A DNA stretch of 35,413 nucleotides from a virus. Shown here in pieces: positions 31,264 to 35,268 of the stretch; position 1 is the stretch's first letter; each line of letters opens with the position of its first letter. The notes beneath the pieces were generated by a model. It had not been told where the DNA came from. It saw only the letters and a program-made list of their open reading frames with translations, and made no database searches. The translations under genes were made by a program, and so were the position numbers. The stretch is from IMG/VR virus record IMGVR_UViG_3300048123_000034, positions 1-35,413 of that record. One strand, given 5' to 3'.

Positions 31264-31419
31264 TTATTCCTCACGCCACATGTCTAAACGGACAGTAAAC
31301 ATCAGTAAGAACAACTGAATAGTATGAAAGGGTACCTCCTCAGTAGAAGGCAATGATTCAAAGCCTAATGCAAATCTATCATGAGGCCAGTGAGCAACTA
31401 AGGTAAGGGTCCAGTTCAT
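31264..31419 (-). CDS. 51-residue hypothetical protein, end of the minus-strand operon
   Basis: The frame begins MNWTLTLVAHWPHDRFALGF and ends MFTVRLDMWREE. It is aromatic, with a short hydrophobic stretch (IQLFLLMFTV) that may contact the membrane. The ATG overlaps the PhoH stop by one base (TAATG), so it is translated as part of the operon. No family is recognised. Confidence 0.6.
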   Translation of the reverse strand: MNWTLTLVAHWPHDRFALGFESLPSTEEVPFHTIQLFLLMFTVRLDMWREE

Positions 31420-32105
31420 TATCTATAATCTTCGTATACTTTAAGTATAGGTTCTACAATTTCATGTCTGTGATTTGTTTTAAGGGTAATCACTTTAAAC
31501 CCTTTAACCTGTGCTTCTAATGTATACAAGAAACCAAAGCCTGAATCTTTCTTATTACGTAAGTCAATCTGAGCTTTATCACCACAGATGATCATTGTAC
31601 TTCCTTTACCAAGACGTCCAAGCATCATTTCCATTTGGTTCATGGTAACATTCTGAGCTTCATCTAAAATGATTACAGCATCAGTAAAGGTTCTACCACG
31701 CATAAATGCAAACGGTACAATCTCTATTTGCCCTTCTTCAACACACTTGTCAATCTTAACTTTGTCGTATAGTAAGTACAAGTTATGGTATATAGGAGCA
31801 AGCCACGGATCCATCTTTTCTTTGATATCTCCAGGAAGGAAACCAATGTCTTCTTTGGCAACGGTTGGTCTGGTGATAATAATCTTTTCAATCTGCTTTG
31901 TAAATAAGAGATCCAACCCAGTTTGAACTGCCACCAAAGTTTTCCCACTTCCTGCCATACCCTGTAAGACAGTGACTGGGTTTTCAAGTATCTCTGCTTT
32001 TGCATGTTTCTGCTCTTCATTTAGAGTAACGTTAAACTTAATAGGTCTTTTAGGTCTTCTCTTTGCTTTAAATACCTCATCTTCATGAGATCTAGCTGCA
32101 GCCAT
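31419..32105 (-). CDS. phoH: PhoH-like ATPase
   Basis: A 228-residue PhoH-family P-loop ATPase/helicase-like protein. Walker A is GMAGSGKT (about 49-56), followed by RPTVAKEDIGFLPGD, a family hallmark. Walker B is AVIILDEAQN, with a later sensor strand MIICGDKAQ. A final KTNHRHEIVEPIL completes the domain. PhoH is widespread in marine and other phages; it probably acts in RNA metabolism, but its role in infection is unsettled. It starts 2 nt after the coiled-coil membrane gene. Confidence 0.9.
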   Translation of the reverse strand: MAAARSHEDEVFKAKRRPKRPIKFNVTLNEEQKHAKAEILENPVTVLQGMAGSGKTLVAVQTGLDLLFTKQIEKIIITRPTVAKEDIGFLPGDIKEKMDPWLAPIYHNLYLLYDKVKIDKCVEEGQIEIVPFAFMRGRTFTDAVIILDEAQNVTMNQMEMMLGRLGKGSTMIICGDKAQIDLRNKKDSGFGFLYTLEAQVKGFKVITLKTNHRHEIVEPILKVYEDYR

Positions 32106-32107
32106 AA

Positions 32108-32674
32108 TTAGTCTTTTTCTGTAGCATACTTGACACCCATGATGGTACCAACTATACTGAATGAATTAGTTAACAATATACCAAATAAATTGGACCAGGT
32201 AGTTTCAATTATCTTAGAATCTAAACCACTACTTAAAATATATAAATACAACACTGTAGTGAGTATACCAACACCCGCAATAACGCCCAAAGCAAGTTTA
32301 ACTATAATGCTAATCAACTCAAACTGAGTCTTTTTTTGCATTACTTCTAGATCATTTAAGGCTTCATCCCGTAAACCCTCAGCTTCTCTCTTAGAAGCTT
32401 CAAGCTCCTCCATCTTATTTTCAAGATCACTCAGTAGATCCTTGTTTATTACGGCAGCCTCCTCAAGTTCTTTATTTTGTTTCTGAATCTGTTTAGTTAC
32501 AGCAAGACGCTTCTTTCTATTCTCCTGATCTTTACGTTTACATTCGTCAAGGTATTCCCTGACGTTTTTATCAGAAGTGTCAGCCAATAGCTTGACAAAG
32601 TTACCCTCTATATAAACCCTTTTAGACTTGGCTTTTAATAGTGCGTCCTTTACTGTATCCTTAGAACTTATCAT
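32108..32674 (-). CDS. Coiled-coil two-span membrane protein of the sensor operon
   Basis: A 188-residue protein. Residues 45-115 are a long Lys/Glu-rich coiled coil (RKKRLAVTKQIQKQNKELEE; LENKMEELEASKREAEGL). Two membrane helices follow: IISIIVKLALGVIAGVGILT-like at about 120-145 and GILLTNSFSIVGTIMGV at about 162-180. The protein is thus membrane-bound with a cytoplasmic or periplasmic coiled coil. It overlaps the receiver gene (ATGA) and comes directly after it, so it may be the output or scaffold of the sensor pair. No family is recognised. Confidence 0.65.
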   Translation of the reverse strand: MISSKDTVKDALLKAKSKRVYIEGNFVKLLADTSDKNVREYLDECKRKDQENRKKRLAVTKQIQKQNKELEEAAVINKDLLSDLENKMEELEASKREAEGLRDEALNDLEVMQKKTQFELISIIVKLALGVIAGVGILTTVLYLYILSSGLDSKIIETTWSNLFGILLTNSFSIVGTIMGVKYATEKD

Positions 32675-33105
32675 CTATATACTTTAAACGGGTTAGTCTT
32701 ATCAACATACCCCTCATAGTCTTTATGAAACTCTTCCAGCCTTGGTTCAATGTCATCGGACTTAATAATCCAAAACTGTGCACCTACTTTCTTTGCTTTC
32801 TCAATCTCTGCCTGATCACTGCTACTAGAAATAATACCAATAACACATCCATTACCATAATCCTCATTTATTTTACGGATCATCTCAATGCCGTCATATG
32901 AAGATCCAATTATATTTAAGTCTACAAATACACATTGTGGTCTATCTTCACCATTATCCGGAAACCAAGATTTAAATTTCTTATCAGCCTCATCACTACT
33001 ATCTAGTGACTCAATAGATAAAGCTATATCCAACATACTACAAGCATCCTCAAACACCAAGTGGAATAGGTTCTCATCATCTATAAGCATCAACGTATCA
33101 ATCAT
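32671..33105 (-). CDS. Stand-alone receiver (response regulator) protein
   Basis: A 144-residue single-domain receiver. The metal-binding acidic pair is in LIDDE (D9, D10). The phosphoacceptor is D62 in VFVDLNI, the conserved Ser is at 93 in IISSSSD and the Lys is K115 in WIIKSDD. All key residues are present, so it should be phosphorylated. There is no DNA-binding output domain, so it acts by protein contact, like CheY. It overlaps the kinase stop (ATGA) and the downstream start (ATGA), tightly coupling kinase, receiver and coiled-coil protein. Confidence 0.85.
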   Translation of the reverse strand: MIDTLMLIDDENLFHLVFEDACSMLDIALSIESLDSSDEADKKFKSWFPDNGEDRPQCVFVDLNIIGSSYDGIEMIRKINEDYGNGCVIGIISSSSDQAEIEKAKKVGAQFWIIKSDDIEPRLEEFHKDYEGYVDKTNPFKVYR

Positions 33106-34004
33106 ATCTCAATAATTATTTTAGTACCTCCTGATTCTTTTTTCTCAGCCCGCACTATATATCCATGTTCTTTTAAAATAGAAATTGAGATGTTAAGTCC
33201 CAATCCTGTACCAGTTTCTTTCTGTCCTTCTTTACGCACATACGGTTTACTAAGCTCAATAAATTCCTCAGCAGTTATACCGCGTCCGTTATCTTCTATG
33301 ATCAATTGTAATGCCTTATTGTAATTATTCTGGAAATATATTTTTACATATTTAGTACCAGAGTCATTATACTTTAAACCGTTTCTTATAAAGTTATCTA
33401 CCGCTGTACAAAACAGGGCCTCATTTAATTCTAATATGGTGTCTAGACTATCATCTAATACAACCTGATTCTTATATGCAGTGAGCTTGAGGTAATCCTC
33501 CAAGATTTCTTTTACATTCTTTGTATCAACATTCAGGCGTGCGCCCTCCTTAACAAGATTAGTGAACTCATATACCCCACTGTATACTTTCTGCGCGTGA
33601 TGTAACCCATCCTGTATCAATTTCAAGGGGCTTCCAATCTTTAGCTCATTAATTGACTCATCAGTCAACCTGCGCTTCAATGATTTAATACCCCTGGGTA
33701 AGTAAGTGTTAATACCACTATGCATGTCATGCCTAATAATCTTAGCAGCATGCTCTAGATATATATTCTTCTGGTCCAGATCACCTTTGATTCTCTCTTT
33801 GTTCTGAAGGAATTCTCTAACAACTACAAAGAAGGGGGGCATAAACGCTATTACACTCAGCCACTCAAAGTAATGGGTAAACGTACTATGATGTATAAAA
33901 CGGAACACCACTAATGTTTTGAAGACAAAGAACGTCAACATAATAATAGTGGCGCACAGTAGGCAGATCCTACTCCTTATTGATATTCCATCAAGTACAG
34001 ACAT
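33102..34004 (-). CDS. Transmembrane histidine kinase
   Basis: A 300-residue sensor kinase. Two membrane helices (about 12-34 and 47-63) flank a short loop, leaving almost no external sensing domain. The H-box is KIIRHDMHSGIN, with the phosphoaccepting His at about 92. The catalytic domain follows: N-box DNFIRNGLKYN, G1 EDNGRGI and G2 ETGTGLGLNIS. All are intact. The ATG overlapping the previous stop (TAATG) is preferred to an upstream TTG. Kinases with such a small external loop often sense through the membrane itself. A phage-encoded full kinase/receiver pair is unusual. It is cotranscribed with the lysis genes. Confidence 0.88.
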   Translation of the reverse strand: MSVLDGISIRSRICLLCATIIMLTFFVFKTLVVFRFIHHSTFTHYFEWLSVIAFMPPFFVVVREFLQNKERIKGDLDQKNIYLEHAAKIIRHDMHSGINTYLPRGIKSLKRRLTDESINELKIGSPLKLIQDGLHHAQKVYSGVYEFTNLVKEGARLNVDTKNVKEILEDYLKLTAYKNQVVLDDSLDTILELNEALFCTAVDNFIRNGLKYNDSGTKYVKIYFQNNYNKALQLIIEDNGRGITAEEFIELSKPYVRKEGQKETGTGLGLNISISILKEHGYIVRAEKKESGGTKIIIEI

Positions 34005-34246
34005 TATAGCTCTGTCTTTTTCCAACCTAACTTTTCAAATACCCACTTGCTTGGACAGAACTTCGTCCATACACCAACCTGTAGCATTACAATAACAAAA
34101 CCTACAATGTCCCAGTTACGTGTCACCCACCCAATGAATAACACCAAAGACATCAGTAAGTATACCATGCGTACACTCGTCCAACTTACAGCATTTGTAA
34201 GAACGTTAGCAATGCTACTCTTAATCTTAGATAAAACCTTTTCCAT
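34004..34246 (-). CDS. Small two-span membrane protein
   Basis: An 80-residue protein with two hydrophobic helices: VRMVYLLMSLVLFIGWV (about 25-42) and IVGFVIVMLQVGVWTKF (about 47-63), with a basic C-terminus. Its start lies 61 bases inside the preceding gene, and its stop overlaps the kinase start. Coupled to the kinase gene, it could be a partner sensor subunit or a second holin/antiholin. No family is recognised. Confidence 0.65.
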   Translation of the reverse strand: MEKVLSKIKSSIANVLTNAVSWTSVRMVYLLMSLVLFIGWVTRNWDIVGFVIVMLQVGVWTKFCPSKWVFEKLGWKKTEL

Positions 34247-34401
34247 AGTGAAAGCTTTTTAAATTGTTCAGTTCTAAACAAGTCTTCTGCTTCGGTGATT
34301 GTCTCATCCCAAGCCAGTACTTCTGCAATCTCAGCTTCCTCTTCCGGAGTTAAGATCCACAACTCAATGTTGTCCCTGTCAAGTAAACTCTTCTTTGTCA
34401 T
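34186..34401 (-). CDS. Small hypothetical protein of the lysis/sensor operon
   Basis: A 71-residue protein with an acidic helical centre (LTPEEEAEIAEVLAWDETIT) and a basic amphipathic C-terminus (KKLSLWKRFYLRLRVALLTF). The C-terminal helix could lie on the membrane. The ATG overlaps the previous stop (ATGA), supporting the start. The last 61 bases overlap the next gene. Confidence 0.65.
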   Translation of the reverse strand: MTKKSLLDRDNIELWILTPEEEAEIAEVLAWDETITEAEDLFRTEQFKKLSLWKRFYLRLRVALLTFLQML

Positions 34402-34532
34402 CTTCCTTGTCCTCTGTACTTTTTCTTGTAGTTTACTGATGACTTGTTCTTGCTCGTTCCATTCTTTGAATGAACCCCCGGTCTACTCTTCTTTGTAACT
34501 ACCCGGTGAGCACTGTTGATGTGTTTTGCCAT
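34398..34532 (-). CDS. Conserved 44-residue basic phage peptide
   Basis: The frame begins MAKHINSAHRVVTKKSRPGV and ends NYKKKYRGQGR. The pattern MAKHINSAHR, KKSRPGVHSK, KSS-NY-K-YRGQG is a familiar very small protein in Bacteroidota tailed phages. It is highly basic and probably binds RNA or DNA. Its function is unknown. It lies 17 nt after the DUF5675 gene and overlaps the next gene (ATGA). Confidence 0.75.
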   Translation of the reverse strand: MAKHINSAHRVVTKKSRPGVHSKNGTSKNKSSVNYKKKYRGQGR

Positions 34533-34549
34533 GTTGATTTAATTGATTG

Positions 34550-35020
34550 TTATACCGTATCGTAGTCTATGTAAGTAATTGTTACTTCTTCCCCTGCTTC
34601 CAACGCTGCAGCAATTGGAGGATAGATTCTTTTATACGCTTGAGTGCTTGAACCTGTGAAACCATCACTCTTGATAAGATTGCTTTGTTGACTATCACCA
34701 ACAAGGAGGCACCCAGCAGTGTGTTCATCAGTATTACCAGTATGAATAAGGATCCACTTAAAATTAGGCACATCACGTACCCATAGCATGCCTTTGTGCA
34801 TTTCACCATATTTCTTAGTATATCTTTCATGGTGACCGCCTACCGTTCTAAGAGTGATCTTATATGTGCCAGCAGGAATTCGTGTTTCAGACATAACTTT
34901 TGTCTCCCTATACTCATCTTCAAGAGTGTAGCATAAAAACTTTCTTCCTTCTGTAACATCAAATAATACTCCGTTTGTGCTGTCGCTTTGACTGCTAAAT
35001 CTTAATACTTCTAACTTCAT
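34550..35020 (-). CDS. DUF5675 family protein, putative lysis enzyme
   Basis: A 156-residue protein. Signature stretches are YTLEDEYRETKVMSETRIPA, GTYKITLRT, GMLWVRDVPNFKWILIHTGN and AGCLLVGDS. His, Asn and Cys in IHTGN and AGCLL are the likely active-site residues, in an arrangement resembling L,D-transpeptidase/peptidoglycan enzymes. The family occurs widely in phage lysis cassettes and is thought to act on the cell wall, though this is not shown for this protein. It overlaps the holin-like gene (ATGA), supporting a lysis role. Confidence 0.75.
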   Translation of the reverse strand: MKLEVLRFSSQSDSTNGVLFDVTEGRKFLCYTLEDEYRETKVMSETRIPAGTYKITLRTVGGHHERYTKKYGEMHKGMLWVRDVPNFKWILIHTGNTDEHTAGCLLVGDSQQSNLIKSDGFTGSSTQAYKRIYPPIAAALEAGEEVTITYIDYDTV

Positions 35021-35268
35021 TTCTTTGCAAATTTTTCAAGACCTGCAATTCCAAAACTACCTAAAGTGATAAATACAAAAGAGTTGTAGATCCCTTCGTT
35101 AATAACTAAGTCCTTACCAACATATCCGGTAACCAAATCTGCTACAGCAAAAATTACCATAACAGCAAATGACATAAATCCAATGATAGTTTTCTCATTG
35201 TAATCATTCTCATCTTTAAAGATATCAGCAAACGCCATGACCTTGTTTTTTAATTTATTAAACATCAT
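35017..35268 (-). CDS. Holin-like membrane protein
   Basis: An 83-residue protein with two membrane helices: TIIGFMSFAVMVIFAVADLV (about 27-47) and SFVFITLGSFGIAGLEKF (about 62-79). A charged N-terminus and a lysine end (EKFAKK) complete the common small-holin layout. It is the first gene after an upstream terminator, and its stop overlaps the DUF5675 start. Two adjacent ATGs exist; either may be used. Assignment as holin rests on size, topology and the neighbour. Confidence 0.65.
   Translation of the reverse strand: MMFNKLKNKVMAFADIFKDENDYNEKTIIGFMSFAVMVIFAVADLVTGYVGKDLVINEGIYNSFVFITLGSFGIAGLEKFAKK

Follow-up and report, generated by a model that had tools for sequence, protein, structure and literature searches.

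Lysis timing in phages is usually pictured as an intrinsic clock, to which the lysis inhibition of T4 is a classic sensory exception. A locus in a 35,413-nucleotide stretch of viral DNA (the window, which is the whole stretch analysed; IMG/VR record IMGVR_UViG_3300048123_000034) raises the question of whether phages also carry a phosphorylation pathway by which the moment of lysis could follow the state of the infected cell. At positions 32108-34004 of the minus strand it encodes a sensor histidine kinase (HK), a single-domain response regulator (RR), and a membrane protein with a coiled coil and two spans (CC).

The gene set and its operon

The three genes are intact, and the coordinates, the gene overlaps, and the catalytic residues of the first-pass annotation were all verified (Table 1). 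The operon extends from position 35268 to 31419 and comprises, in this order, the genes for a holin-like protein, a DUF5675 protein, a 45-aa basic open reading frame (ORF), a 71-aa ORF, an 80-aa membrane protein (M80), HK, RR, CC, and a PhoH-like ATPase. The M80 stop and the HK start form TAATG, HK/RR and RR/CC are both joined by ATGA, and PhoH comes next. The holin-like and DUF5675 genes are present upstream in the operon, as had been claimed. PhoH lies outside the conserved module, being 3' of CC in 11/81 loci and confined to the phage clade of the window.

Table 1. Positions of the genes and domains discussed, with the related bacterial locus in the last line
Feature	Position	Strand	Remarks
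Holin-like two-span protein	35017..35268	-	83 aa; putative holin; without Pfam match
DUF5675 protein	34550..35020	-	Pfam PF18925 E=5e-26; phrog_1501; motif IHTGNTDEHTAGC
M80 small membrane protein	34004..34246	-	80 aa; TxFCPSKWxxEKLG motif
HK sensor histidine kinase	33102..34004	-	300 aa; ATG start
RR single-domain response regulator	32671..33105	-	144 aa
CC coiled-coil two-span membrane protein	32108..32674	-	188 aa
CC N-domain and coiled-coil start, aa 1-75	32450..32674	-	Part common with the bacterial kinase
CC C-terminal two-span domain, aa 120-181	32132..32317	-	TWSNxFGILLTNxFSIxGTIMGxK (alignment A2); KD spans
PhoH-like ATPase	31419..32105	-	Pfam PhoH E=6e-64
Bacterial locus	L179:5784-9090		Triple-PAS kinase, RR, 349-aa N-domain-coil-kinase protein; only bacterial copy found

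The concern that the window might be host DNA or a prophage edge is ruled out by the phage replication genes that make up the remainder of the 35-kb fragment and by the terminase on a near-identical relative, the 104-kb contig G001, which has the same operon with 90-99% protein identity. This terminase is related to those of crAss-like phages of Bacteroides, Flavobacterium, and Cellulophaga, and the host is therefore probably a species of Bacteroidota.

The kinase (Pfam HATPase_c, E=2.2e-14) has the phospho-acceptor histidine and the ATP-binding boxes by which histidine kinases are recognised, i.e., H92 in the DHp region (codon 33729-33731), N204/N208, D238-G-R-G, and a GTGLGL G2 box. Among its relatives, R91, H92, D93, N208, and D238 are conserved in 194/194 and N204 in 193/194 sequences, and in the G2 box G267 and G269 in 194/194 and G265 in 172/194; part of this set was chosen by the HDMHSGIN motif, so that the invariance of H92 is partly by construction there, whereas the RR and CC scans were independent of it. 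RR (Pfam Response_reg, E=6.6e-8; phospho-acceptor D62, codon 32920-32922) shows the residues of a receiver without exception, with D9, D10, D62, S93, and K115 present in 156/156 sequences. According to Pfam the receiver domain alone makes up its 144 aa, and the earlier statement that it has no DNA-binding output domain was borne out. By its predicted chemistry, HK-RR-CC is a two-component system.

Intramembrane-sensing histidine kinases are built from two spans that a very short outside loop connects, and they lack a sensor domain. The window HK resembles them in all three respects (the KD spans at aa 15-33 and 48-66 form a hairpin whose outside loop is very short, and there is no extra sensor domain), but differs in its kinase core, which belongs to a distinct clade with a RHDMHSGIN H-box, and in that no transporter partner was seen.

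With regard to the remaining genes of the operon, DUF5675 is a candidate for a peptidoglycan-acting enzyme in the lysis cassette and may serve as the endolysin of the window's clade; it has IHTGNTDEHTAGCLL (34550-35020), which resembles an L,D-transpeptidase-type His/Cys motif. M80 lies upstream in 39/119 lineages and is the usual fourth gene, 5' of kinases with short sensors; the family (window 34004-34246 and the A4 homologues) has an invariant CPS within its TxFCPSKWxxEKLG motif, and its family assignment yielded just a sub-threshold DUF4395 hint for a relative. A very basic protein of 45-48 aa (RPGVHxKxxTSKNKxSxNYKKxYRGQGR) is conserved in unrelated phages with the module, e.g., at ~34394-34531 of the window and at L160:6840-6986.

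Recurrence, sensor variation, and spread among phages

The claim that complete kinase-receiver pairs are rare in phages holds for isolated phages but not for uncultured ones. Relatives of RR or CC were absent from all 50,697 records of INPHARED, whose isolated phages show generic kinases only, whereas a scan with the single RR retrieved at least 530 IMG/VR stretches and the HDMHSGIN scan at least 120 matches. Hot-spring phages with a hybrid kinase have been described, but no complete phage kinase-receiver pair was found in the literature searched, which left most subscription journals outside its scope. Relative to the searches made, two features are new: a membrane output whose N-terminus is of the kinase type, and the spread in uncultured phages.

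The set recurs as a unit: CC is located 3' of RR in 115/115 and HK 5' of RR in 123/124 distinct loci with enough flanking sequence, and a single RR is present on each of 50/50 contigs of up to 321 kb. Median Ka/Ks values of 0.069 (RR), 0.084 (CC), and 0.094 (HK) document purifying selection on all three genes. The module is common to phages with a crAss-like terminase (G001-G003 and, distantly, G326) and to phages with a T4 gp23-type capsid (13 contigs), i.e., two groups with unrelated virion genes; the window RR is nevertheless 83% identical to that of the gp23-type contig G004, which implies transfer between phage lineages.

The sensors vary across the loci, whereas the RR-CC core stays constant. 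Kinase lengths range from ~280 to 750 aa and the architectures include the bare transmembrane hairpin, PAS, double PAS, GAF-PAS, and tandem kinases. Since PAS or GAF domains are present in many sensors, the original proposal that the kinase senses envelope state cannot serve as a general rule, although the window HK itself is a bare membrane hairpin. Tandem histidine kinases 5' of one RR-CC were observed in six loci (L244:6107-9129, L208:7886-10892, L283:9692-13445, L301, L303, and L257); in the two tandem pairs that were scanned (L244 and L283), the first kinase has PAS domains and the second has none.

The coiled-coil protein and its bacterial counterpart

CC begins with an N-domain, continues as a long coiled coil, and ends in a two-span membrane hairpin (KD spans at aa 120-138 and 163-181). 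In its AlphaFold model, one helix (residues 36-149) continues from the coil into the first span and is followed by a second one (154-186), with a mean pLDDT of 82.6 and a pTM of 0.41, at which the overall arrangement is unreliable. The long helix offers a plausible mechanical path from the coil to the membrane in this model. Neither CC nor its C-terminal part matched a holin family in Pfam or PHROG, and a solved-structure search with CC gave no significant match; a Foldseek search of viral proteins retrieved one uncharacterised phage protein with 44% identity. A kinship of the membrane end with the neighbouring holin-like protein, suggested by visual similarity, was rejected, because the hhalign match (P=0.09) was no better than for unrelated small membrane families.

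CC also has a bacterial relative. Searching ~85,000 bacterial and archaeal genomes with the RR profile returned two loci, one of which is phage DNA in a metagenome-assembled genome (MAG), while the other (L179) is surrounded by ordinary chromosomal genes in a Bacteroidetes MAG. A widespread bacterial origin was rejected on the basis of these two matches and of the sampled genomes, in which the same one genome was positive in 1/291 and 1/395. Identity to the window amounts to 54% for the kinase core and 63% for the receiver of L179, and the third protein (P0001) shares its N-terminus with CC (hhalign E=5.8e-19 over 90 columns; BLASTP 47% identity over 53 aa). Beyond the shared ~90 residues, however, it continues into HisKA and HATPase_c domains. 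The bacterial locus is thus like the phage module in the homologous kinase core, receiver, and N-domain plus coiled coil, but unlike it in this ending of the third protein, in a sensor with three PAS domains, and in its location away from lysis genes.

The same N-domain and coil, always beside the same receiver, accordingly lead into a kinase core in the bacterial protein but into a hairpin in the phage proteins. Most simply, the N-domain would be the docking site of the receiver and the output would have been swapped; since the bacterial homologue is one MAG, the direction of the swap between kinase core and hairpin is not readable from it. The homology lends indirect support to the earlier idea that RR may act by protein contact with CC. 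The mean pairwise identity of RR (0.76) is higher than that of HK (0.60) and CC (0.57), and the mirror-tree correlations of RR-CC (0.53) and RR-HK (0.54) cannot separate the two contacts. It is conceivable, though somewhat short of probable in our estimation, that in phages the RR-input end of a histidine kinase became a phospho-gated membrane switch when a two-span hairpin took over the position of the kinase core, and that the resulting mobile, sensor-swappable lysis timer reached crAss-like, T4-like, and very large uncultured phages.

Lysis-gene neighbourhood and the proposed role of the module

The neighbour genes were clustered for 119 CC lineages, which represent 48 superlineages. Beyond HK, RR, CC, and M80, the commonest neighbour is an 82-aa holin-like family, to which the 83-aa protein of the window belongs (13 superlineages), followed by GH19 endolysins (11), an endolysin-matching family of phrog_3000/33083 and Amidase_2 endolysins (8 each), Phage_holin_4_1 (7), M15_3 endolysins (5), and Phage_holin_10 (4). 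Varied holins and chemically different endolysins recur near the module, and different phages therefore pair the same module with different lysis genes. On 50 long contigs, 16/18 GH19 endolysins were encoded no more than 5 kb away from RR (2.1 expected, P about 1e-14), as were 7/11 members of the holin-like family (1.3 expected, P 4e-5), while 4/15 for Amidase_2 was not significant (1.7 expected, P 0.07); these P values count related contigs as independent, and two of them, G337 and G347, look near-identical.

The placement of the module beside lysis genes, a central element of the first-pass annotation, is accordingly a recurrent feature of unrelated phages, as the neighbour survey and the GH19 count show, but not a universal one. 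A lysis gene was recognised within 5 kb in 18/34 lineages with full flanks, and in 12 it belongs to a Pfam-supported family; some modules adjoin genes for ribonucleotide reductase, structural proteins, or replication. The association with lysis is thus strong without being general, and since just 18/34 lineages show it, a role outside lysis is possible.

Overall, the presence of the module in hundreds of uncultured phages, often next to lysis genes, suggests that these phages monitor the condition of the dying cell and time their lysis accordingly. We regard it as somewhat more probable than not that the phages encode a two-component pathway whose output is a membrane effector and by which lysis time follows cell state. 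HK would sense a condition of the infected cell, by the bare membrane hairpin in the window phage and by PAS/GAF domains in others, and would autophosphorylate on H92, from which the phosphate would pass to D62 of RR. Once phosphorylated, RR would bind CC at the N-domain; from there the signal would travel along the continuous coiled coil into the two-span hairpin, and the state of the hairpin would promote or restrain hole formation, with either direction of the effect being compatible with this scheme.

The main rival, which we consider unlikely but deserving of serious weight, is superinfection exclusion or membrane protection, where HK would sense membrane damage or a second phage and RR would switch CC so that the membrane is sealed or depolarised, the lysis genes being adjacent merely as fellow late membrane-acting genes. 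The membrane location of both sensor and effector would suit this function, and so would the non-lysis contexts and the horizontal mobility of the module between unrelated phages, which is a frequent property of exclusion genes; the proximity of GH19 in genomes of up to 304 kb is, however, far above the chance level. The PADLOC models did not match CC, RR, HK, or M80 either, though that library comprises host defence and would not include exclusion genes.

Two other explanations fare worse. Single-domain receivers can serve as sinks or shuttles, and RR might be a decoy, a phospho-sink, or a phosphate donor to host proteins that reprograms the host, with CC anchoring it at the membrane. The bacterial version of the pathway, which ends in a second kinase, indicates that the N-domain can couple to a phosphorelay, but the near-absence of the pathway from the bacteria sampled (two matches in ~85,000 genomes, of which one is phage DNA; 1/291 and 1/395 in the samples) and the two-span membrane end that CC always retains make such a host-signalling tap improbable. 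Accidental bacterial cargo without a role in the lytic cycle, i.e., a moron, was already disfavoured and is hardly credible despite the chromosomal homologue in L179, given Ka/Ks values of <0.1 for HK, RR, and CC, essentially invariant active sites, and an order that is fixed in more than 100 lineages.

The proposed lysis-timing pathway has partial precedents, of which LytSR-LrgAB and T4 lysis inhibition are comparable in their general scheme but belong to other families. In staphylococci, the two-component system LytSR has been reported to sense the collapse of the membrane potential and is linked to the adjacent holin-like LrgAB/CidAB (PMC2996381); it resembles the module in being tied to membrane proteins encoded alongside, but it is bacterial and LytR is a transcription factor, whereas the phage RR lacks a DNA-binding domain and its putative partner sits in the membrane and has a kinase-like N-terminus. 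In T4, the antiholins RI and RIII act on the holin T, so that sensing of the infection state delays lysis (PMC6832632). This is likewise phage-encoded sensing at the membrane, but RI is a periplasmic antiholin that operates without a phosphorelay, and no homologues of RI, RIII, or T were recognised among the annotated neighbour families of the module. The Clostridioides difficile phage phiCDHM1 carries agrBDC with the histidine kinase gene agrC and an endolysin gene nearby, but no response regulator (PMC3901668); the kinase gene close to an endolysin gene is reminiscent of the module, but agrC belongs to peptide quorum sensing, and the case concerns a single phage and no conserved module. If the lysis-timing reading is true, many aquatic phages gauge the state of their host via regulated phosphorylation, and RR would be a rare receiver whose output is a membrane protein, not DNA or the flagellar motor. 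The module moreover predicts a portable, signal-controlled membrane switch.

Several further genes were observed around the module. In one crAss-like clade (L153:10604-13214, L158, L162, and L172), genes that look like ribonucleotide reductase from their sequence are located directly 5' of the module, and a 193-aa one-span protein of spanin-like appearance directly 3' of CC (L153:15525-16106). Non-lysis contexts may contain spanins or holins of an unrecognised type, for which this protein and a 51-aa one-span protein (L169:11288-11443) are candidates. A coiled-coil membrane protein of ~385 aa without a clear family is present near the module in 18 lineages (e.g., L013:5250-6404), and a YceI-like protein (L278:10618-11142) and a DnaK-like chaperone (L316:4212-6077) recur beside it in several lineages.
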